A stretch of 42,031 nucleotides of DNA, from the NCBI GenBank assembly GCA_030605565.1, contig JAUWIB010000043.1:1-42031 (forward strand), given 5' to 3'. How positions within the stretch are numbered: the stretch's first letter is position 1; the number at the start of each line of letters is the position of its first letter. The position numbers and the translations under genes are program-made. The stretch is from a bacterium (GTDB taxonomy: Bacteria > Zixibacteria > MSB-5A5 > GN15 > FEB-12). This document shows, one piece after another, positions 1,563 to 41,683 of the stretch. Below the pieces are notes generated by a model that worked only from the letters and a program-made list of their open reading frames with translations, did no database searches and was not told where the DNA came from.

Positions 1563-1588
1563 GTCATGCTGAGCGGAGTCGAAGCATG
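1563..1588. repeat. 26-nt dispersed repeat, copy 1
   Basis: A 26-nt sequence beginning GTCATGCTGAGCGGAGTCG and ending AAGCATG, with CATGCT/AGCATG ends forming an imperfect palindrome. The identical 26 nt recur at 41658-41683. Weaker relatives with the core CTGAGCG[C/G]AGTCGAAG lie at about 22565 (+) and about 9238 (reverse orientation). Confidence 0.7.
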
Positions 1589-1599
1589 AGCGCAGTCTT

Positions 1600-1628
1600 G
1601 TAGGTCAGGTTCCTTAGAACCTGACGCC
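1600..1628. repeat. GTAGG-type stem-loop element abutting the PFK stop codon
   Basis: A 29-bp element in which GTCAGGTTC pairs with GAACCTGAC around a short loop (CTTA). It is nearly identical to 15222-15250 (one base differs). Its last base is the final base of the minus-strand phosphofructokinase stop codon, so it could form a 3' hairpin on transcripts arriving from either side. There is no T-tract, so calling it a terminator would be inference. Confidence 0.7.
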
Positions 1629-2830
1629 TATTCACTCGTCATGATAAACTGCGGCTGCATCTCAAAGCTCTTGTAATGAGGGCGCAGGCGGCCAATGTTG
1701 TAATACTTATCAACGTTGACGAACTTCTTCGTGCTGGTGACCACGTCAATAGGCATATCGTCGTACCGACCGTTCTTAAGTACGACCAGCCGTCCGTGGA
1801 TACCCTTCAGGATCAGATCGAGAGCCAGATTGCCGTATGCCATCGGCACAATCGAATCGACGGCGTCCGGATCGCCGCCGCGGACGAGATATCCTAACTT
1901 CTGATTGATGACATCGATCGGTTTGCCGTCGTTGTACTTGGTGGACAGTTCCTTCAGTTGGGCCGACACCATTTCACCTATCCCGCCAAGTTTGGCATGG
2001 CCGTAGGCATCTTTCTCCGCGTCCTGATACACCATCTCCCCACCTTCGAACATGGCGCCCTCCGACACCAACACCACCGAGTATCGACTGGGATTAGCCT
2101 GGCGATCGTGGGTGAGAAGCTCAGTCAGTCGGTCTATGTCGAACTTGTGCTCCGGGATGACGCAGCGGTTGGCCGCACCCGCCATCGTCGGCAGCATAGC
2201 CGTGAACCCGGCATAGCGACCGAACACCTCCAGCACCAGGAACCGCTCGTGCGATCCGGCTGACGTGCGCAGGCTGTTGGTCATATGTATGGTCCGTGTG
2301 ACGCAAGTGCTGAACCCGATGCAATAGTCGGTGCCGGGGACGTCGTTGTCCATCGTCTTGGGCATAGCAACAACTTTCATACCTTCCTGATACAGGCGAA
2401 CGCCATAACTCAGAGTGTCGTCGCCGCCGATCGGTATCAAGTAGTCGATCCCGAGGAAATCCAGATTCTTGAGCACCTCCTCCGTGAGATCGTTCATCGG
2501 CTGATGGTATTCGCCCTGCAGATGCGCCGGCACGTTGGCTTTCGGCACATGGCCGGGATGGGTGCGGGAAGTGTGCAGAAAAGTGCCGCCGGTGCGTCCG
2601 GCCTTGTTTACGATCTCCTCGGTCAGGAGCAGATAGTGGTCTGAGTTGTCCGCCTCACTGTCCCGAACGAGTTCAACGGCGCCGCCCCAGCCGTGACGAA
2701 GACCGATGACCTGATAACCTTCGCGACGGGCTCGTATAGTGATAGCTCTGATAGCCGGGTTCAGCCCCGGCACGTCACCGCCGCCGGTGAGAATACCGAT
2801 TACACCTTTTTTCTTTCTTATGTGTGCCAT
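1628..2830 (-). CDS. 6-phosphofructokinase, probably pyrophosphate-dependent
   Basis: A 400-residue group A phosphofructokinase, the committed step of glycolysis (fructose 6-phosphate to fructose 1,6-bisphosphate). The phosphate-binding start GILTGGGDVPGLN (residues 12-24), GGDDT (135-139), the catalytic loop PKTMDND (157-163) and VFGRYAGFTA are all present. In this family Gly versus Asp in GGD[G/D] and Gly versus Lys in P[G/K]TxDND separate ATP from PPi users. Asp138 and Lys158 are both the PPi-type residues, so a reversible pyrophosphate-dependent enzyme is expected. That inference is strong but untested. GGAGG precedes the ATG by 7 bases. Confidence 0.92.
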   Translation of the reverse strand: MAHIRKKKGVIGILTGGGDVPGLNPAIRAITIRARREGYQVIGLRHGWGGAVELVRDSEADNSDHYLLLTEEIVNKAGRTGGTFLHTSRTHPGHVPKANVPAHLQGEYHQPMNDLTEEVLKNLDFLGIDYLIPIGGDDTLSYGVRLYQEGMKVVAMPKTMDNDVPGTDYCIGFSTCVTRTIHMTNSLRTSAGSHERFLVLEVFGRYAGFTAMLPTMAGAANRCVIPEHKFDIDRLTELLTHDRQANPSRYSVVLVSEGAMFEGGEMVYQDAEKDAYGHAKLGGIGEMVSAQLKELSTKYNDGKPIDVINQKLGYLVRGGDPDAVDSIVPMAYGNLALDLILKGIHGRLVVLKNGRYDDMPIDVVTSTKKFVNVDKYYNIGRLRPHYKSFEMQPQFIMTSE

Positions 2831-3259: not shown

Positions 3260-6200
3260 ATGAGTACGAATCTCGAAAGCCTGATTAACGACCACGCCAC
3301 AATGATGGCCGGCCAGATGGTCGAAGTTGCCAAGTGGGCGAAATCCGAGGAGGACGTTCGCCACGAGTGCAACAAACTCATCGACGAGTTCATCGAGAAA
3401 GCCGGGCTGTCTGTCAAAGGGCGACATGAGTATGGTCTGGCCGGTGGGCGCATCGACTCGAAGTACGGCGGCGTGGTCATTGAGTACAAAGACCCGAAGG
3501 GCGCGGGCAAGATCACGGAAGACAAGAACGCGCCGGGCGTCAAGGCTGTCGTCAAGCAGATCAAGAAACGCTTTCACGACTTCCAAGCTGAAGAACACGT
3601 CGGCATGGAACGCATCTTCGGTGTGGGCTGCGACGGCGACACCTTTGTTTTTGTCCGCCATCGTGGGAGAACAATAGAGGTTGAGGACCCGCAGCCCGTC
3701 ACGCCGCACACTGTCGAGCGCCTTCTCCGCGCCCTGGTTTCCCTGGGAGCGAAGGGACACTCTTTTACCCCGGACAATCTCTGCGATCACTTCGGTGGTC
3801 AGGGACCAATCGCGCTGGCTGGAATCGCGCGCATCTATGAAGCCATCTCCACCACAAGCAGTGCCAAAGCGCAGATATTCTTCCAACAGTGGCAGATTCT
3901 CTTCGGCGAGGTGTGCGGCTATGATGTGCGCGGCCAAAGCGCCAAAATAAAGAAACTCGGCGAGCACTACTGCATCCCAACGGCCAGGCCCGCCGAATTG
4001 CTCTTCTCGGTCCACACGTATTACGGCATTCTCATCAAGCTCCTCGCTGCCGAGATTGTCTCCTCTTTCTCGCCGCTGGGGACCTCGACGCTCAAGAAAC
4101 TCGTCGCCGCTCCCACCTCGGCCAAACTGCGCTCCGAGCTTGAAGCCCTGGAGCAGGGCGGAATCTGGTCGCAACTGGGCATCCGTAACTTCCTCGAAGG
4201 CGACCTGTTCTCCTGGTATCTCGACGCATGGGATGAGCGACTCGACCAAGCCGTGCGCGGCATGGTCACGACTCTCGACCGATTCGATCCCACCACTCTT
4301 AGTGTCGAACCGGCAGAATCGCGCGACCTTCTCAAAAAACTCTATCAACATCTCTTTCCGAAATCCGTTCGCCACGACTTGGGTGAATACTACACGCCCG
4401 ATTGGCTTGCAGAGTTGACCCTTAATGAGTTGGGCTACGACGGCGACCCGGACAAACGGCTCCTCGATCCCGCCTGCGGGTCGGGCACCTTTCTGGTCAT
4501 GACTATCAACCGGATCAGGGCATGGTTCGCCGAGCACCGCCACGAATGCGGTTTCGGCGAAGACGAACTCCTCAATAAGATTCTCAGCAACGTCATCGGT
4601 TTCGATCTCAACCCCTTGGCCGTGATGGCCGCGCGAACCAACTATCTTCTCGCTATCCGTGACCTCTTGCGTCACGGCGGCGATATCCAACTGCCGATCT
4701 ACCTGTGCGATTCAATCATGACCCCCTCGGAGTACGGCGATCTCTTCACAGGAGGCCTTGGAAAAACCAGTAGGCTGAAGACAAGCGCCGGTGAGTTTTT
4801 CATCCCCACTGAGGTGGCCGGCAATCGCGAGGCGATCGGCAAGTATGCGGACACGCTCGAATTCTGTATCCGCGACGGCTATTCTCCTGAAGAATTCGTC
4901 AAACGCTGCGAGGCGGAAGCCATCCCCGCGACAGAAGCCGGACTCCACAAGGAACTTTTCCGGAAGCTTCAGACCCTCGATGGAAACAACCAGAACGGCA
5001 TTTGGGCGCGCATCATCAAGAACGCCTTCGCTCCACTGTTCATCGGAACTGTCGATTATGTTGTGGGCAATCCGCCGTGGGTCAACTGGGAGAACCTGCC
5101 GGAAGAGTATCGCGACAACATGAAACCCCTGTGGCACGAGTACGGTCTTTTTACGCTCTCGGGACACGCAGCACGGCTGGGTGGAGGCAAGAAAGACCTC
5201 TCCATGTTGTTCGTGTATACGGCCGTGGACAATTATCTCGATAAAGGGGGTCGCCTTGGATTCGTCATTACGCAAAGCGTGTTCAAGACTCAGGGCGCGG
5301 GCGACGGTTTCCGACAGCTCCGGTACGAGCGGGACGGGACTACGTGGCGTCTGAAACCCCTTGCCGTCCACGACATGAGCGCCTTACAGGTCTTTGAGGG
5401 CGCTACCAATCGTACCGCTGTCTTTGTGTGCCAAAAGACGAAACGCCCCTTCAAGTACCCCGTGAAGTACGCAACTTGGTCCGGACCTTCGCGCATTGCT
5501 CAGGACGAATCCCTTGCGAGCGTCCTGGGTGCTACCCGTCGGAGAAAGATGGGAGCGGTGCCTGTCGCCGTTGACAAAGAATCGTCGCCCTGGCTGACCG
5601 CCCCGACCAAAGCACTATCGGCTATTCAGAAAGTGATCGGCCAGAGCGACTACAAGGCCTACGAAGGTGTCAACACGGGTGGTCTGAATGGATGTTATTG
5701 GATTCGGGTTCTGGAGAACCTCCCCAACGGGGAACTACTGATCGAAAACCTGCACGATGTCGGCAAGATCAAGGTTCCGCATGTGGAGACGGTCATTGAG
5801 CCGGACCTGGTCTATCCGCTGCTACGGGGCCGTGACGTCCAGCGCTGGCACGCCGAGCCATCGGCGCACATCATTCTGGCCCAGAACCCGCAGACAAGAA
5901 AGGGTATTCCCGAATCCGAAATGAAGCGCCGCTGGCCCAAGACCTACGCTTACCTGAAGCAATTCGAGGGCGACCCCAAGAACCCGGTGCGCGGTACTCT
6001 GCGCGGCCGTTCCGGCTACCGCCAATACTTCAAGCCCACCGACCCCTTCTACTCCATGTACAACGTCGGGCCGTACACAATGGCGGAATGGAAGGTGGTG
6101 TGGCGATACATTTCAACGGACTTGCGAACATCAGTTGTAGGCCCCGCCGAGGGTACGATTCACATTCCGGATCATAGGCTCATGCTCATTTGCCTGGAAT

Positions 6201-6514
6201 CGAGTTCCGATGCTCACTACGTTTCAGGGTTATTGAATTGCTCCGCGTGTGATCTTCTGGTGAGGAGCTACGTGATAGGCACTCAAATATCTACCCACGT
6301 CCTGAGCAACGTGGCCGTTTCCAAGTTCAACAAAACAAACATCAACCACGCACGGTTGGCCGAGCTCTCGCGACAGTGCCACGCCGCTGCAGACGAGAAC
6401 AAGGGGGATGAGATTGCGCGTCTCGAATCTGAGATTGATGAAGTGGCGGCGGGAACCTGGGGCATCTCGGACGCCGAGTTGAAAGCAATCCAGAAGGCTC
6501 TGGCCGACATCTAG
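3260..6514 (+). CDS. Single-chain restriction-modification enzyme (Type IIG / Eco57I-like N6-adenine methyltransferase with nuclease)
   Basis: A 1,084-residue fusion predicted to bind, methylate and cut DNA. The N-terminus has a PD-(D/E)XK nuclease signature in GRIDSKYGGVVIEYK (D66, E75, K77). A helical linker leads to a gamma-class N6-adenine methyltransferase: GEYYTPDWLAEL, SAM motif I DPACGSGTF near residue 403, FDLNPLAVMAAR, and catalytic NPPW near residue 604. The C-terminal third, with YPLLRGRDVQRW, resembles Eco57I-type target-recognition domains. There is no separate methylase, specificity or helicase gene. The start is an ATGA overlap with a short upstream frame and lacks an obvious ribosome-binding site. 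BREX PglX is an alternative family, but the N-terminal nuclease and the absence of other BREX genes argue against it. The recognition sequence cannot be predicted. Confidence 0.88.
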   Translation: MSTNLESLINDHATMMAGQMVEVAKWAKSEEDVRHECNKLIDEFIEKAGLSVKGRHEYGLAGGRIDSKYGGVVIEYKDPKGAGKITEDKNAPGVKAVVKQIKKRFHDFQAEEHVGMERIFGVGCDGDTFVFVRHRGRTIEVEDPQPVTPHTVERLLRALVSLGAKGHSFTPDNLCDHFGGQGPIALAGIARIYEAISTTSSAKAQIFFQQWQILFGEVCGYDVRGQSAKIKKLGEHYCIPTARPAELLFSVHTYYGILIKLLAAEIVSSFSPLGTSTLKKLVAAPTSAKLRSELEALEQGGIWSQLGIRNFLEGDLFSWYLDAWDERLDQAVRGMVTTLDRFDPTTLSVEPAESRDLLKKLYQHLFPKSVRHDLGEYYTPDWLAELTLNELGYDGDPDKRLLDPACGSGTFLVMTINRIRAWFAEHRHECGFGEDELLNKILSNVIGFDLNPLAVMAARTNYLLAIRDLLRHGGDIQLPIYLCDSIMTPSEYGDLFTGGLGKTSRLKTSAGEFFIPTEVAGNREAIGKYADTLEFCIRDGYSPEEFVKRCEAEAIPATEAGLHKELFRKLQTLDGNNQNGIWARIIKNAFAPLFIGTVDYVVGNPPWVNWENLPEEYRDNMKPLWHEYGLFTLSGHAARLGGGKKDLSMLFVYTAVDNYLDKGGRLGFVITQSVFKTQGAGDGFRQLRYERDGTTWRLKPLAVHDMSALQVFEGATNRTAVFVCQKTKRPFKYPVKYATWSGPSRIAQDESLASVLGATRRRKMGAVPVAVDKESSPWLTAPTKALSAIQKVIGQSDYKAYEGVNTGGLNGCYWIRVLENLPNGELLIENLHDVGKIKVPHVETVIEPDLVYPLLRGRDVQRWHAEPSAHIILAQNPQTRKGIPESEMKRRWPKTYAYLKQFEGDPKNPVRGTLRGRSGYRQYFKPTDPFYSMYNVGPYTMAEWKVVWRYISTDLRTSVVGPAEGTIHIPDHRLMLICLESSSDAHYVSGLLNCSACDLLVRSYVIGTQISTHVLSNVAVSKFNKTNINHARLAELSRQCHAAADENKGDEIARLESEIDEVAAGTWGISDAELKAIQKALADI

Positions 6515-6532
6515 GGCACAACCCTTTGTCCC

Positions 6533-6568
6533 ACATACAACAAACCCTTCAACTTGATCGCTGAAGGG
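6533..6568 (-). terminator. Probable intrinsic terminator of the tRNA-Gln transcript
   Basis: Read on the minus strand 19 nt beyond the tRNA 3' end, a stem CCCTTCA / TGAAGGG (6568-6562 with 6551-6545) with a 10-nt loop is followed by a T-rich run beginning TTTGTTGT. This fits factor-independent termination of tRNA transcription just before the convergent R-M gene. Confidence 0.55.
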
Positions 6569-6586
6569 GGCGCAGGAAACTAAAAG

Positions 6587-6657
6587 CTGGGACACAGGGA
6601 TTCGAACCCCGATTCCGCGGTCCAGAGCCGCGTGCCCTACCATTGGACTATGTCCCA
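6587..6657 (-). tRNA. tRNA-Gln (anticodon CTG)
   Basis: The minus strand folds into a complete cloverleaf. The acceptor arms are TGGGACA and TGTCCCA. The anticodon stem CGCGG/CCGCG encloses the loop CTCTGGA with anticodon CTG, reading CAG codons. The T-arm contains GGTTCGAATCC. The U1-A72 start is usual for tRNA-Gln. The discriminator is G and the 3' CCA is not encoded. A consensus promoter lies about 63 bp upstream and a hairpin plus T-run lies downstream, so it appears to be its own transcription unit. Confidence 0.95.
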
Positions 6658-6719
6658 GTTCAATTCAGTTGTCGGCAGCTTTCAGGCTTTCCAAACGACC
6701 GCCCGGTAGCATCGGCCCG

Positions 6720-6747
6720 AATATACTTACTCAGTCCCGTTTGTCAA
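6720..6747 (-). promoter_or_regulatory. Strong sigma-70-type promoter for tRNA-Gln
   Basis: On the minus strand TTGACA (6747-6742), a 16-bp spacer and TATATT (6725-6720). The same hexamers and spacing precede the DUF5678 gene at 11413-11440. Initiation near 6713 gives a 5' leader of about 55 nt before the tRNA. It lies just downstream of the thiamine pyrophosphokinase stop. Confidence 0.65.
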
Positions 6748-6760
6748 TATGTAAGCCGGC

Positions 6761-15085: not shown

Positions 15086-15092
15086 CAGGGTC

Positions 15093-15118
15093 AAGCCCTG
15101 TTTCTCGCGCTTCGCGCG
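15093..15118. repeat. Dispersed repeat with CGCGC-TTC-GCGCG hairpin, copy 1
   Basis: Eight bases after the pilT stop, a segment with TTTCTCGCGCTTCGCGCG recurs almost unchanged at 40434-40459 (over 20 shared bases). The core CGCGC TTC GCGCG is a perfect tiny hairpin. Related CGCGCTACGCGCG-type palindromes lie at about 1545 and, in reverse, at about 41732. Confidence 0.6.
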
Positions 15119-15221
15119 GCGGCAGCATCTCAGGAAGCTGCCCTGCCAGAGCAAGCTTGTAGCGGTCGAATCTTCAGATTCGGCCACGTCTTTTGCTGAA
15201 TTTCCGTGGCATATCAGTATT

Positions 15222-15250
15222 GTAGGTCAGGTTCCTTGGAACCTGACGCC
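15222..15250. repeat. GTAGG-type stem-loop element between convergent pilT and CPBP genes
   Basis: A 29-bp element differing by one base from 1600-1628. The stem GTCAGGTTCC / GGAACCTGAC has a minimal loop (TT). It ends six bases from the CPBP protease stop codon. A preceding segment with CCGTGGCATATCAGTATT is shared with the copy near 41810-41826, so the repeat unit is longer than the stem. Confidence 0.7.
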
Positions 15251-15255
15251 GAACG

Positions 15256-16485: not shown

Positions 16486-17562
16486 GTGGTACGGAGATTG
16501 TTTTCAATCACAATGTTGGCGGCCCTGTTGCTTTGGGCGGTAGGCTGCTCGGAGAACTCGACGGGGTCGGATGATCTCACTGAGAATCCGAATCTTAACG
16601 ACCCGACCGGCGGCTACCTTCCGACTTCTGAATCGCCCGGATTCGGCGATCCCGACCTGTTGGCCGAGGCCAACGATAACGATGAGTACAATGACCCGAT
16701 GCTAAGCGCTCTCGGCGCCGACACTCTGGACGACAGCCTTGATGGTCGCTACCATTTCAGGGTCGTCTGGGGCCAGTTGCGCTATGATTCCACCGTTATT
16801 GACGTTACCGACTGGACCGGCTCGCTGACAGTCTCGCGCGGCGCTATGGCTATCCGGCGGGTGATCAAATTCGAACCGGGGCAGGATGCTATCGTTCCCC
16901 GCACCGACCGTACTCTGGTCGAGTGGGAGTCGTTCACTACCGTACATCACGACGGCCTTGCCGTTGATATTTTTATCCCGCCCGACACGGCGATAAGTTC
17001 TGAGGCTGTGACCGTTGCCTTTGAGACCGGACCTTACAGTCGCACCTTTGACCTGTCCGAATTGGCCGCCCTGGATACCGTTGTTTACCTGGACGACGCC
17101 GATTCCAACGCCGTCGCCTTCCACGCCTTCCGTCTCGATCGCGTCCCCTGCCCACGCGGCTTTCTGACCGGGCACTGGGGTTACGACGAGGACGGCGAGG
17201 GTGTCTTCCGTGGCGTTTGGATGACTCGTCACGGATGGATCTCCGGCTTCCTGCGCGGCCATTGGGGCGTCAATGATAACGGCCAGAGAGTGTTCTTCGG
17301 CAAATGGATCTCCGCCAACGGCCGGTTCGAGGGTTTCTTGCGCGGTCTTTGGAACCGGAATCCCAGCCATAACGCCAGCCCGGTCGCAATCAAGCATGCC
17401 GGCGGTTGGTTTGCAGGTGAGATACTCAACGCCGACGAACTGGTGATCGGCACTCTGAAGGGTAAGTATAAGTCCCACCCGGCATTCAAGAAGGGTTTCT
17501 TCCAGGGCCGATGGAAGTTGGCTTGCAACGATGTAGAGCCCCCTCGGGACGACGGACTGTAG
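16486..17562 (+). CDS. Lipoprotein with C-terminal GxW-type repeats, function unknown
   Basis: A 358-residue predicted lipoprotein. The GTG at 16486 is preferred since AAAGGAG sits 8 bases upstream and it gives a compact signal peptide with lipobox AVGC (C21). An in-frame ATG at 16456 would add ten polar residues. The acidic, Asn/Asp-rich linker (to about residue 65) is followed by a beta-rich domain. The C-terminal part, from about residue 225, carries repeated G-aromatic/Leu-x-G-x-W units: GFLTGHWG, GVFRGVW, GFLRGHWG, VFFGKW, GFLRGLW, GTLKGKY and GFFQGRW. I know no named family for this pattern; it suggests stacked beta strands on the cell surface. Confidence 0.7.
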   Translation: MVRRLFSITMLAALLLWAVGCSENSTGSDDLTENPNLNDPTGGYLPTSESPGFGDPDLLAEANDNDEYNDPMLSALGADTLDDSLDGRYHFRVVWGQLRYDSTVIDVTDWTGSLTVSRGAMAIRRVIKFEPGQDAIVPRTDRTLVEWESFTTVHHDGLAVDIFIPPDTAISSEAVTVAFETGPYSRTFDLSELAALDTVVYLDDADSNAVAFHAFRLDRVPCPRGFLTGHWGYDEDGEGVFRGVWMTRHGWISGFLRGHWGVNDNGQRVFFGKWISANGRFEGFLRGLWNRNPSHNASPVAIKHAGGWFAGEILNADELVIGTLKGKYKSHPAFKKGFFQGRWKLACNDVEPPRDDGL

Positions 17563-17648
17563 AGAGAACCCGCAATGGATTGCGACGTGGTGTCACATGA
17601 ATGTCATCGATATGCACCGAAGAGATCGGTCGCCGACAGGCGGCCGAT

Positions 17649-17672
17649 CCTCGTCGCAAACCTGCGACGAGG
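17649..17672. repeat. Perfect 10-bp stem hairpin
   Basis: CCTCGTCGCA pairs with TGCGACGAGG around the loop AACC. It is located 87 bp after the GxW lipoprotein stop and has no T-run on either side. It may stabilise the mRNA 3' end. Confidence 0.5.
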
Positions 17673-17759
17673 AGACTCCAAAACGCAACTATTGCGACAC
17701 TTTTTTATGGAACTATCCGAACAAAATGGTATGGTTATACGTTAAATAAGCAGAGCAAG

Positions 17760-17789
17760 AAAAACCCCCTCTGTCTCTCCTAGAGACAG
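17760..17789 (-). terminator. Probable terminator for the minus-strand TPR lipoprotein transcript
   Basis: On the minus strand the perfect stem CTGTCTCT / AGAGACAG with loop AGG (17789-17771) is followed by AGGGGGTTTTTCTT. This is a standard hairpin plus T-run. It lies about 195 bp beyond the TPR lipoprotein stop. Confidence 0.55.
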
Positions 17790-17798
17790 CCCTGCGTT

Positions 17799-17833
17799 GG
17801 GCAGGATTAGCAATAATCCTGCCCTCCTCTTTT
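17799..17833 (+). terminator. Probable terminator for the plus-strand GxW lipoprotein transcript
   Basis: GGGCAGGATT (17799-17808) pairs perfectly with AATCCTGCCC (17815-17824) around AGCAAT, and TCCTCTTTT follows. The stem sequence resembles the GTAGG-element family member at 41625-41654 (GGGCAGGAT / ATCCTGCC). A dispersed repeat may therefore be serving as terminator here. Confidence 0.55.
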
Positions 17834-17983
17834 ATGGACCCATTTTGATCTCAAATGACTCCGGGTACCCGTCAACTGTCCTACTTTTGTGGACGGCGTA
17901 TGTCCACATGCGCCGCAAAGAGACCCGGCTTGACCGGACATCTGCCGCACACAGACGATCACCGTGGACATCTGCGGCCCGTG

Positions 17984-18832
17984 TCAGTCGCTCGATTTTC
18001 CGAACTCCGCCTCAAGAACTTGAATCGTGGAGTCTACCAGTCTATGAGCGCCGAGAGTAGCGCGTACTTCTCTGAAGAGCTTGAGTGCTTCCTGTCGTTT
18101 AGCTCGCTTGTCCTGCTCGGCCAGCACTGAGGCCAGGTTGAGTTGATAGGCTACTGCGGCAGTGTCGTCGGCGAGCAGCGAGCGAAAAATCCGCTCTGCT
18201 TCTGAGTATTTGCGCTGAGCGGCGAGATAAGCACCCTTATTGGCCAGGAATGACTCGTTCGGTCCAAACTTCTCAATGGCGCTGTCGACAATCTCGATGG
18301 CGACGCTGAGCGAGCCGAGGTCAGCGGCGGTGTTGCCCACCTGAACATACCGATTGGGATTGTCCGGCTCACGTTCGAGTAGCTGTCGATAATAGTAATG
18401 CGCAAACGAAATGTCCTTGATCTCCAGGCTGAGTTTGGCCAATGTCTCCAGGTGATTATCTATCGGGTCCCCGGCGGCGATCAGCGCCCGCAACGCCTTG
18501 CGAGCCGTCTCGAAATCCTCGCAGTTGAGGGCTGCCTCGTACAAGGCCACGTTGATTTCACGATCGGCAGGGTAGAGGATGTCGGCGCGGCCAAGATAGA
18601 ACGCCGCCGAATCGTACATCGATTCGCGTGAATAAGTGAGACCGAGAAGATATAACACCTGGCGATCCGAGGGTTTCTGTTTGAGAGCCCCGGACAGATA
18701 CCCACGCGCTTTGAAATAGTCGCCGCTGATAAAGGAGCGTTCCCCAGCCTTAACCAATTCATCAAAAGTCTCCGGTTCACCGGCGCAGGAAATCATCATC
18801 GTTACTGTCAGCACAAAGAGAAGTTTTCTCAT
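17984..18832 (-). CDS. TPR-repeat lipoprotein
   Basis: A 282-residue predicted lipoprotein with signal peptide MRKLLFVLTVTMMIS and acceptor Cys16. It is followed by about six consecutive TPR units, for example SFISGDYFKARGYLSGALKQ, VLYLLGLTYSRESMYDSAAF, ALYEAALNCEDFETARKALR and YVQVGNTAADLGSLSVAIEI. Such periplasm-facing TPR lipoproteins scaffold envelope complexes; no partner is shown here. GAGG precedes the ATG and a good promoter lies 33 bp upstream. Monocistronic. Confidence 0.85.
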   Translation of the reverse strand: MRKLLFVLTVTMMISCAGEPETFDELVKAGERSFISGDYFKARGYLSGALKQKPSDRQVLYLLGLTYSRESMYDSAAFYLGRADILYPADREINVALYEAALNCEDFETARKALRALIAAGDPIDNHLETLAKLSLEIKDISFAHYYYRQLLEREPDNPNRYVQVGNTAADLGSLSVAIEIVDSAIEKFGPNESFLANKGAYLAAQRKYSEAERIFRSLLADDTAAVAYQLNLASVLAEQDKRAKRQEALKLFREVRATLGAHRLVDSTIQVLEAEFGKSSD

Positions 18833-22465: not shown

Positions 22466-22531
22466 GGCCGGCAGCGTGGCGCCTGACGCTATAGCGATTG
22501 TCATAAATATGTTCCGTTTCAGCGACACCAA

Positions 22532-22594
22532 GTAGGTCGAAACCCCTGCCCCGAAGGGGTCGTCCTGAGCGCAGTCGAAGGGCGAGGTTTCGAC
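22532..22594. repeat. GTAGG-type composite stem-loop between convergent genes
   Basis: A 63-bp element. The outer arms GTCGAAACC and GGTTTCGAC enclose the inner hairpin CCCC-GAA-GGGG and a relative of the CTGAGCGCAGTCGAAGG repeat. A shorter version with the same outer arms is at 41759-41806. It lies between the 3' ends of the macrodomain gene (+) and a lipoprotein gene (-). Confidence 0.65.
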
Positions 22595-22604
22595 ATTTCC
22601 AGAT

Positions 22605-38342: not shown

Positions 38343-40430
38343 TTAGCCACCGCCAAGCTCCGTCTTTCGACCAAATGCCGAATTCTCCAGAAATGAATAC
38401 AGCTTGACGTGCTCGCTGTCAAGTTCGGTCTCTTTAGCGAACAGCGTTGACAGAAGATTTCGTGCTGTTTCGATGAGATCGCGATCGGCCGACAGCCGAG
38501 CTATCCGGAGTTCAGGCAGGCCGGACTGCTTGAACCCGAACATCTCGCCCGGTCCGCGCAGTTCCAGATCGGCTTCGGCAATAGCGAAACCATCGGACGT
38601 ACCGGTGAAGTACTGCAACCGCTTCTGTGCTATCTCCGACAGCGGTGGATGGGCCAGCGCCACCAGCGTCGCCTGTTTGTCGGAACGGCCGATTCTTCCG
38701 CGCAACTGATGCAACTGGGCCAAACCGAATCGTTCAGCATGTTCGATCACCATCACGGTGGCGTTAGGATTGTCGATACCGACCTCAATCACAGTAGTGG
38801 CCAGCAGAACATCCAACTCGCCGGACCGAAAACGCAGAAGAGTCTCGTCCCGTTCCTGCGGCTTAACTCGCCCGTGAACCATGCCCACGCTCAGATCACG
38901 AAAAACGGACGAAGACAGTTCCTGGTAGGCGTCCTCGACGTTTTCGAGTTCCATCTGATCCGACTTCTCAACCAACGGATAGATAATATATGCCTGTCCG
39001 CCCTTGCCGATCTCATCGACGACAAACTTGTACACCTTGTCGCGAGCGTCGTGGGTACGCCAGACGGTTCGCGTTATTTTTCGTCCCGGTGGCAGCGTAT
39101 CGATTGTCGAAATGTCCAGATCGCCGTACATCGTCAACGCCAGAGTGCGCGGGATGGGTGTCGCCGTCATTATCAACAGATCGGGGTTGTCACCCTTGGC
39201 GTGCAGCTTGCTTCGTTGCTCGACACCGAAACGATGCTGCTCATCGATAATCACCAGTCCAAGATTGTCGAAGGTGACATAATCATAGATCAGAGCGTGC
39301 GTCCCAAAGAGAACGTGAATACTTCCCTGGGCGCATTCGCTGGCCACCTTTTTCTTGACCGATGGTTTCAGACTCGACGTCAGCAGGGCGCATCGGAAAC
39401 CGAGCTTCTCAAGGGCCGGACCCCAGGTACGGAAATGCTGCTCGGCCAGAATCTCGGTCGGCGCCATAAAGGCTGTCTGCAACCCATTCTCGGCGACATA
39501 CAGAGTCGACGCGATGGCCACGACAGTCTTGCCGCAACCGACATCGCCTTGCAACATGCGCGCCATGGGATGCTTCGACTGAAGATCGATAAATATCTCC
39601 CGGATCACTTTTTTCTGTCCCGTCGTCAACTCAAACGGCAGTTCATTCTTGAACTTCGTGAGCGTCTCCCCGGGTGGCTGGTAGCGATGGTCCTTAACGG
39701 CTCTTTCCTTTTGTGCCTTACGGCGAAATACCATAAAGAGAAAGCCCAGCAGTTCATCGAAAGCCAAACGGCGTCGGCATGTTTCCAACTGCTCGCGATC
39801 ATCGGGATAATGGACCTTCTGAATCGCGGTGTGCAAGTCCACCAGTTGCGATTGGCCGCGAACAGTGGACGGCAGGTGATCGGGAATCGGCTCTGTCAGG
39901 TGATCGAAAACAAACGAGGTAATCCGTCGCAGGCTCTTGCTGGCGAGGCCCGCTTTCGACAACTCTGCGGTCTGCGGGTAGACCGGAATGATGCGTCCGG
40001 CGTGAACCATCTGCGATGAATCGTCATCGAGACGTTCCAGATCGGGATGGATCATCTGGTAACCCATGAAATACGAAACGGTGCCGGTCGCGGCGAACAT
40101 CTGTCCTTTCTTGAACAGGCGCTCCCAATACTTGACACCCGCAAACCACATCAGCGATATGGCGCCGCTGTCGTCCTCCAGGATCACCTCGTAGCGCCGC
40201 CGCCGCCCGTGCAGAATGCCGTGGGCTTTGACCATGCCGATGATCGTCACCGGCTGGTCAACCTGCACCCTGGCGATGGGTACGACATTGGTGCGATCGA
40301 GATATTGCCGTGGGAAATACGACAGCAGATCGCGCACCGTGTGCAGGTTGTGGTTAGCCAGGACTTCGGCTTTCCGGGGGCCGACACCCTTGACGTACTG
40401 CAGCGGTGAATCCAGTTTTAGTTCAGCCAC
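38343..40430 (-). CDS. recG: ATP-dependent DNA helicase RecG
   Basis: A 695-residue branched-DNA translocase that remodels stalled replication forks and Holliday junctions. The wedge/OB domain (VDQPVTIIGMVKAHGIL) precedes SF2 motifs: Walker A LQGDVGCGKTVVA near residue 295, TEILAEQHF, the DEQH box IIDEQHRFGVEQR, TATPIPRTLAL, then ATTVIEVGIDNPNATVMVIE and QLRGRIGRS. The C-terminal hook is present. GTG at 40430, with AGG 7 bases upstream, is preferred. A TTG at 40436 would begin inside a dispersed repeat. It heads the minus-strand run toward murB. Confidence 0.96.
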   Translation of the reverse strand: MAELKLDSPLQYVKGVGPRKAEVLANHNLHTVRDLLSYFPRQYLDRTNVVPIARVQVDQPVTIIGMVKAHGILHGRRRRYEVILEDDSGAISLMWFAGVKYWERLFKKGQMFAATGTVSYFMGYQMIHPDLERLDDDSSQMVHAGRIIPVYPQTAELSKAGLASKSLRRITSFVFDHLTEPIPDHLPSTVRGQSQLVDLHTAIQKVHYPDDREQLETCRRRLAFDELLGFLFMVFRRKAQKERAVKDHRYQPPGETLTKFKNELPFELTTGQKKVIREIFIDLQSKHPMARMLQGDVGCGKTVVAIASTLYVAENGLQTAFMAPTEILAEQHFRTWGPALEKLGFRCALLTSSLKPSVKKKVASECAQGSIHVLFGTHALIYDYVTFDNLGLVIIDEQHRFGVEQRSKLHAKGDNPDLLIMTATPIPRTLALTMYGDLDISTIDTLPPGRKITRTVWRTHDARDKVYKFVVDEIGKGGQAYIIYPLVEKSDQMELENVEDAYQELSSSVFRDLSVGMVHGRVKPQERDETLLRFRSGELDVLLATTVIEVGIDNPNATVMVIEHAERFGLAQLHQLRGRIGRSDKQATLVALAHPPLSEIAQKRLQYFTGTSDGFAIAEADLELRGPGEMFGFKQSGLPELRIARLSADRDLIETARNLLSTLFAKETELDSEHVKLYSFLENSAFGRKTELGGG

Positions 40431-40433
40431 AGG

Positions 40434-40459
40434 CAAGCCTGTTTCTCGCGCTTCGCGCG
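40434..40459. repeat. Dispersed repeat with CGCGC-TTC-GCGCG hairpin, copy 2
   Basis: Nearly identical to 15093-15118, including TTTCTCGCGCTTCGCGCG. It begins just upstream of the recG start and so would form part of the recG 5' leader, in the divergent gap with the nuclease gene. Confidence 0.6.
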
Positions 40460-41657: not shown

Positions 41658-41683
41658 GTCATGCTGAGCGGAGTCGAAGCATG
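41658..41683. repeat. 26-nt dispersed repeat, copy 2
   Basis: Identical over 26 nt to 1563-1588, 40 kb away. It immediately follows a GTAGG-type stem-loop, whereas copy 1 precedes one by 11 bp. Confidence 0.7.

Follow-up and report, generated by a model that had tools for sequence, protein, structure and literature searches.

Palindromes between converging genes of a Zixibacteriota genome: REP-like repeats and a candidate small RNA gene

The palindromes that lie between converging protein-coding genes in the genome of an uncultured Zixibacteriota bacterium are a mixture, in which most are dispersed repeats of REP type (164 of 249 sampled hairpins), some look like ordinary terminators, and one gap holds a conserved RNA candidate. 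Our window, the stretch of 42,031 nucleotides analyzed here, is the entire contig C137 of a 3.39-Mb genome assembled in 152 contigs. An initial annotation had named four convergent gaps in it, at 1442-1627, 15086-15255, 17563-17983, and 22466-22604 (gaps 1 to 4 below), as all carrying strong palindromes. Taken jointly, it is highly probable that gaps 1, 2, and 4 carry REPs, most likely moved by REP-associated tyrosine transposases (RAYTs), and that gap 3 carries a candidate small RNA gene (Table 1). The orientation bias of the palindromes is real, its cause belonging to a known class (mobile REPs plus ordinary terminators), and finding REPs alongside RAYTs in Zixibacteriota extends this system to a candidate phylum. 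The by-product weighs more, as the gap that does not fit REPs appears to contain a candidate new RNA family that is conserved, structured, syntenic, and without an Rfam family.

Table 1. Features of the convergent gaps, in window positions.
Feature	Position	Strand	Remarks
Other dispersed repeat in gap 1 (CATGCTGAGCGGAGTCGAAGCATG type)	1563..1588	+	Identical copy at 41658-41683
GTAG-type REP-like hairpin, gap 1	1604..1625	+	Unpaired GTAG at 1600-1603; 17 further copies in the sample
Convergent gap 2	15086..15255		Between a cpaF-like secretion ATPase (+) and a CAAX-protease-like protein (-)
Short dispersed palindromic repeat TTTCTCGCGCTTCGCGCG	15097..15118		Second copy at 40438-40459; similar k-mer families reach up to 17 gaps
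GTAG-type REP-like hairpin, gap 2	15226..15247	+	Unpaired GTAG at 15222-15225; 28 further copies in the sample
Hairpin of gap 3	17648..17673		11-bp arms; single copy in the sample; no T-run
Conserved GAACAAA ... GTTAAAT pair, possible promoter	17719..17747	+	Upstream of the RNA; GAAC invariant in 13 of 13 aligned rows
Candidate small RNA gene	17754..17834	+	About 80 nt; model match 17760-17834, 5' end predicted
Degenerate dispersed repeats	17886..17980		Further copies of 17886-17937 in this genome and in others of the genus
Insertion in gap 4	22490..22602		113 bp; 98% identical copy at G000:C120:117534-117646 (same genome)
Composite REP-like element inside the gap 4 insertion	22532..22595	+	64 bp; GTAG tag; GTCGAAACC/GGTTTCGAC outer arms

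Palindromes and gene orientation

The cpaF-like protein of the window has its closest relatives in L105 and L106 (97%), followed by Candidatus Zixiibacteriota MAGs. Two of the genomes used for comparison, G005 and G006, appear to represent the organisms behind L105 and L106, judging by sequence agreement in the compared parts. A relative with 47% identity to the window protein sits on a contig titled Klebsiella pneumoniae MAG (L184), a label that may be wrong. Genes were called with a codon-based caller, which reproduces the four named gaps to the base, and the gaps were analyzed using a palindrome finder with dinucleotide-shuffle controls. A standard repeat search at default settings returned no inverted repeats in these four gaps.

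The gapless perfect-arm palindromes of gaps 1, 2, and 3 have arms of 9, 10, and 11 bp, respectively, matched by none of 20 shuffles of each gap. That of gap 4 has an arm of 6, as good as in 8 of 20 shuffles, and this gap contains a composite fold at 22536-22594 with 9-bp outer arms (z -3.65, equaled in 0 of 200 shuffles). The window has a fifth gap between converging protein genes, at 6515-6760, which contains a tRNA-Gln gene and whose best palindrome, with an arm of 7, is not a strong one (equaled in 4 of 20 shuffles). That every convergent gap has a strong palindrome thus holds for gaps 1 to 3 and, as a nested fold, for gap 4, and is valid only if gap 6515-6760 is set aside. The gene that converges on this tRNA-Gln gene (6586-6657) occupies 3260-6514 and encodes a 1084-aa protein with N6-methylase/Eco57I/MmeI-type matches; tRNA genes are a usual place for islands. 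At the contig start, two direct GGACATTTCTATYTTGC copies 25 bases apart (86-132) overlap the start of the first gene and may be the end of a mobile element. The proximity of palindromes to stop codons, also claimed initially, holds for copies in the window (2, 8, and 10 bp) and fails as a general rule, with only 7 of 120 distances between repeat hairpins and stops in convergent gaps being 10 bp or less.

Among the 20 window gaps of at least 30 bp, hairpins scoring at least 9 occur in three of five convergent, none of five divergent, and none of 10 tandem gaps. Four gaps are too few to prove a bias, so the test rests on 60 other stretches of the same genome (1,033,418 bp, window excluded), in which the gaps of 30-600 bp comprise 65 convergent, 297 tandem, and 74 divergent ones. 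In this sample, hairpins scoring at least 9 reach a density of 3.87/kb in convergent, 1.35/kb in tandem, and 0.64/kb in divergent gaps, as compared with 0.02-0.08/kb in shuffles and 0.05/kb in coding DNA. At a score of at least 8, hairpins are found in 47/65 convergent, 89/297 tandem, and 24/74 divergent gaps. When length is controlled for, repeat hairpins (defined below) are 3.62-fold more frequent in convergent than in divergent gaps (Poisson rate ratio, quasi z 4.8; 478 gaps), and a length-binned permutation gives p = 2e-4. Small subsamples are noisy: in one of two of 0.2 Mb, divergent gaps (n = 9) had 3.00/kb vs 2.37/kb in tandem gaps. The bias seen across the 60 stretches is therefore not confined to the window, densities per kb fall from convergent to tandem to divergent gaps instead of being equal, and the initial observation was largely right. 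It had listed a divergent recG/nuclease gap as an exception, which possibly refers to the dispersed palindrome at 40438-40459; this one lies in a divergent gap, 7 bp ahead of where gene 38343-40430 is called to start.

Dispersed repeats, terminator-like hairpins, and RAYTs

The hairpins of the sample fall into two classes. Repeat hairpins, which have at least three further copies in the sample, make up 164 of the 249, and the remaining 85 are unique. Repeat hairpins do not look like intrinsic terminators because T-runs accompany only 10 of 164, against a background of 8.1% at random gap positions (532/6587). A GC-rich hairpin followed at once by a T-run, as in rho-independent terminators, is present at 17799-17824 in gap 3; T-runs follow 33 of the 85 unique hairpins, these 33 being ordinary terminators by their look, and most repeat hairpins lack one. 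Unique T-run hairpins occur in 13/65 convergent, 20/297 tandem, and 0/74 divergent gaps, and in G002, a genome of the same genus with no detected RAYT, six of 13 lie in convergent gaps (five in tandem, two in divergent). These distributions would suit the suggestion that selection has put every one of the palindromes between converging genes as a bidirectional terminator. Background-level T-runs, the presence of repeat hairpins in 14/74 divergent gaps, and their absence from the same gap in relatives (below) argue against it, and as an account of all palindromes it is very unlikely. Intrinsic termination remains a fair reading of the unique-sequence T-run hairpins and finds no support for the repeated elements.

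The elements of gaps 1, 2, and 4 look like REPs, judging by their sequence and predicted folds. An unpaired GTAG next to a hairpin recurs in the DNA folds of all three, and across the sample GTAG stands directly outside the foot in 72 of 690 cases, 32 times the expectation. A GTAG (or GTGG) tag with a hairpin is the signature of RAYT-linked REPs in the accessible text of PMC2817692 and PMC3733652, and many dispersed extragenic copies are found here, as in a REP system. The gap 1 hairpin ends 2 bp before the converging stop codon of gene 1628-2830 (-), and a pattern over 1600-1628 has nine exact matches in the genome, two of them in the window; its neighbor at 1563-1588, on its own, folds no better than shuffles (z -0.62). 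The gap 2 hairpin lies 8 bp from the converging stop, and the composite element of gap 4 has a CGTCCTGAGCGCAGTCGAAGG unit inside.

Consistent with REPs, the genome has five Y1_Tnp matches, the fifth with an internal stop. All four stop-free frames pass the NCBIfam REP_Tyr_transpos cut-off, although two are partial (L030 is truncated where its contig stops, and the L032 match covers only a portion of the model). The L034 RAYT is surrounded by four hairpins of one family, two per side, and so is that of L031; their feet read GTGG or GTGC, not GTAG, and seed k-mers of the L031 and L034 families occur in 11 and 25 gaps, respectively. The L030 RAYT has, on its single assembled side, one GTCGRAACC-type hairpin similar to the one in gap 4. 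The L032 and L033 RAYTs showed no such flanking pair, the GTCAGGTTCC hairpin that occurs in gaps 1 and 2 was not seen beside any RAYT, and no RAYT link was found for the CCTGAGCGNAGTCGAAG family (122 copies). We hold our explanation slightly less firmly because the gap 1 and 2 family was found without a RAYT of its own. Moreover, GTAG at or near the foot marks only 57 of the 249 hairpins; the feet of the remaining repeats differ, so that proof of being a RAYT substrate does not extend to all of them. The GTAG-footed hairpins show the orientation bias by themselves (16/65 convergent, 20/297 tandem, and 6/74 divergent gaps).

Comparison with relatives reveals presence/absence polymorphism at orthologous sites for gaps 2 and 4. 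The 113-bp insertion of gap 4 is absent from G005 and G003, both of which read across the site. The gene pair around gap 2 is kept in L106 with a shorter gap without the hairpin, and in L105 the hairpin is degenerate. Gap 1 offered no clean empty site, G005 having a different, longer sequence there. In G002, two of 27 hairpins are repeats and none of 27 is GTAG-footed, vs 12/50 and 10/48 GTAG-footed hairpins in like-sized samples of this genome; in G001, which has five RAYTs, 33 of 56 hairpins are repeats (13 convergent, 18 tandem, two divergent) and only five of 56 are GTAG-footed, the G002/G001 comparison being one contrast among related genomes rather than an independent series. RAYT-rich and RAYT-poor genomes within one genus make the dependence of REPs on RAYTs testable.

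These data also bear on the initial proposal that the repeats are gyrase or nucleoid-protein sites absorbing supercoils between converging genes. Repeat hairpins do prefer convergent gaps, being found in 31/65 of these vs 51/297 tandem gaps. Moreover, in the accessible text of the respective papers, BIME-2 elements of E. coli bind gyrase (PMC2817692), supercoiling at the ends of convergent genes holding REPs is discussed, and convergent REP placement is already tied to it (PMC1525189). Yet G002, poor in repeats, keeps the gap 3 gene pair (L242; its gene order was compared for gap 3 only), so the genus can do without them. We consider such a role highly improbable.

We favor REPs: small DNA hairpins that do not move by themselves, carry an unpaired GTAG, and would most likely be disseminated in single-stranded form by RAYTs. 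They would accumulate between converging genes, probably because insertion there hits neither promoter nor operon. Against a simple rule of promoter avoidance counts the finding that tandem and divergent gaps hold repeat hairpins alike (51/297 vs 14/74, Fisher p 0.73), the regression giving tandem gaps a 1.62-fold higher rate (quasi z 1.9) and the density per kb also being somewhat higher.

What can be consulted of PMC3733652 already places REPs mainly between unidirectional and convergent ORFs. Our elements resemble the GTAG REP/RAYT systems in the accessible parts of PMC3733652 and PMC2817692 in their unpaired GTAG/GTGG tag and short hairpin, the scatter of extragenic copies, the presence of more than one family in a genome, RAYT genes with their own hairpins on both sides (L031 and L034), and preference for unidirectional/convergent gaps. 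Unlike the GTAG REPs described in those parts, they reside in Zixibacteriota, prefer convergent gaps with tandem and divergent ones alike per gap, and include the 64-bp composite of gap 4, in which a CGTC-type unit lies inside a GTAG-type hairpin. This unit (22559-22584) starts with CGTC, with no transposase linked, and is likened by description, not by consensus, to the CGTC-tagged REPs in the accessible text of PMC3733652. No paper combining Zixibacteria and RAYT was found in the literature searched.

A candidate small RNA gene in gap 3

Gap 3 has a strong hairpin at 17648-17673, not seen in the flanks compared in relatives, and repeats at 17886-17980, whose GGACATCTGCCGC half-palindromes are similar to the hairpins on either side of the L034 transposase gene. 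When the gap was used as a query, matches outside the genus were confined to one stretch (54-90 bases, 83-97% identity). A 71-nt core is identical in L206, L207, and L106 (L106 and L207 are probably the same organism), and 69 nt of it in L208. Against L242 (G002) and L252 (G004), two 30-nt core bins are 93-100% identical and the 5'-edge bin 70-80%, vs 23-60% for most remaining bins of the gap.

The RNA candidate consists, in order, of an A/C-rich (C-rich) 5' segment, hairpin 1 (17771-17789), a CCCUGCGUUG linker, the terminator hairpin (17799-17824), and a T-run. Aligned copies share a core composed of a C-rich 5' segment, a CTGTCTC/GAGACAG hairpin, a CCCTGCGTTG linker, a GGGCAGGATT/AATCCTGCCC hairpin, and a T-run. 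In the terminator helix, 96.7% of 300 cells are paired, and sliding the partner by one base drops the pairing to 50-55%. Both sides have changed in 18 cells (none of 500 shuffles has as many), and five pairs show a double change (13 of 500 shuffles have as many), the shuffles ignoring the relatedness of the sequences. Covariation says little for hairpin 1 because it hardly varies in close forms and is re-paired in distant ones. All eight single sequences folded gave z-scores between -4.6 and -6.5, and in the minimum-energy fold of the window RNA the linker base-pairs with four nucleotides of the 5' segment. Read on the + strand, the gene would produce an RNA of ~80 nt with a C-rich 5' segment, a hairpin, and an intrinsic terminator. 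A sigma-70 scan upstream returned no promoter match, and the GAAC...GTTA pair there fits no sigma-70 consensus.

Another possibility is that 17754-17834 is no more than a terminator or 3' UTR belonging to the upstream gene, with no separate RNA. In most loci with both called, the conserved stretch does follow that gene on the same strand at a distance of ~120-260 bp, and it ends in a terminator. Against this, the C-rich 5' segment and the linker are conserved like the stems among closer forms, the GAAC...GTTA pair upstream is conserved, and full-length second copies exist without the upstream gene beside them (L274, L276, and L277). We regard this possibility as unlikely and prefer a separate small RNA.

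Membership in a known Rfam family was rejected, no covariance model having matched. Across the window, only a tRNA reached the gathering score; region 17400-18100 gave no match at E<=1 and seven divergent loci none at E<=0.5. Four stretches of the RNA sequence were not found in the literature searched, which held no paper on Zixibacteria with sRNA or Zixiibacteriota with small RNA; Zixibacteria with small RNA returned only a mouse gut study.

Distribution and possible action of the RNA candidate

Two covariance models, R1 built from 13 copies and then R2 from 30, were searched in 132 genomes of the phylum using Infernal's stricter filters, which lose weak matches. At E<=1e-4, R2 finds the RNA in 39 of 54 genomes of the window's own family (54 as counted from a kinship-ordered list) and in none of the 78 others. 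In one of the searches, 30 of 72 matches were partial, running antisense through the terminator palindrome, and were dropped, which left a 42-row alignment view. Weak R1 matches in five genomes outside the family (~25-27 bits) were treated as noise, none having an R2 match at E<=1e-4. G005, a family genome, has no match, and a search with the region gave only short repeat-like matches there, so the RNA site may not be assembled in it.

In the window, the RNA candidate lies between two converging genes, one of no Pfam family (16513-17562) and one encoding a TPR protein (17984-18832). Counting the window itself, 31 of 41 loci have both neighbors in this convergent arrangement; six others have one neighbor and four neither, several of these being on short contigs. 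Flanking-protein identities range from 100%, the value for the window itself, to 34-63%, where most loci lie. Copies in G063 and G014, which were outside both models, have the same gene order, with proteins 48-49% and 34-35% identical.

The upstream gene does not adjoin the full-length second copies of L274, L276, and L277. Those at L276:2030-2106 (G018) and L277:2049-2125 (G059) each lie ~1 kb from a phage-integrase-family gene, and the two loci share 84% identity over 668 bp. Each has a 55-aa ORF of no Pfam family, and that of L276 also has a DNA methylase gene. A mobile element probably carries these two extra copies. The extra copy of L274 (G060) has a VWA-domain frame nearby and no integrase seen there.

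As for how the RNA might work, its C-rich segment is mostly unpaired in centroid folds, with part of it pairing in the minimum-energy folds of the window and L268, and most distant forms contain CCTCCTGTC, which suggests pairing with purine-rich ribosome sites. A general anti-Shine-Dalgarno role found no support, as the segment forms weaker duplexes with 717 gene starts than 30 shuffles do (mean -8.1 vs -9.2 kcal/mol). Such weak pairing points to few specific targets or to a protein ligand. We envisage that the RNA could act in trans, base-pairing via its C-rich segment with a limited set of targets. Xanthomonas sX13 is reportedly a trans-acting sRNA with C-rich motifs. Like such sRNAs, the candidate is short, with a terminator and a C-rich segment; unlike them, it has no Rfam match, belongs, among the genomes searched, to one Zixibacteriota family only, and shows no excess pairing with gene starts. 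We tentatively propose, while considering it somewhat short of an even chance, that gap 17563-17983 encodes an undescribed small regulatory RNA of this family, kept between the same converging genes while these diverged, and that full-length extra copies travel on integrase-bearing mobile elements (in G018 and G059), perhaps as a means of influencing host regulation.

G060 has three copies of the RNA candidate on three contigs (L257, L274, and L275), the most among the 132 genomes, and at L272 (G052) two copies stand in tandem in one gap, at 1951-2032 and 2161-2237.
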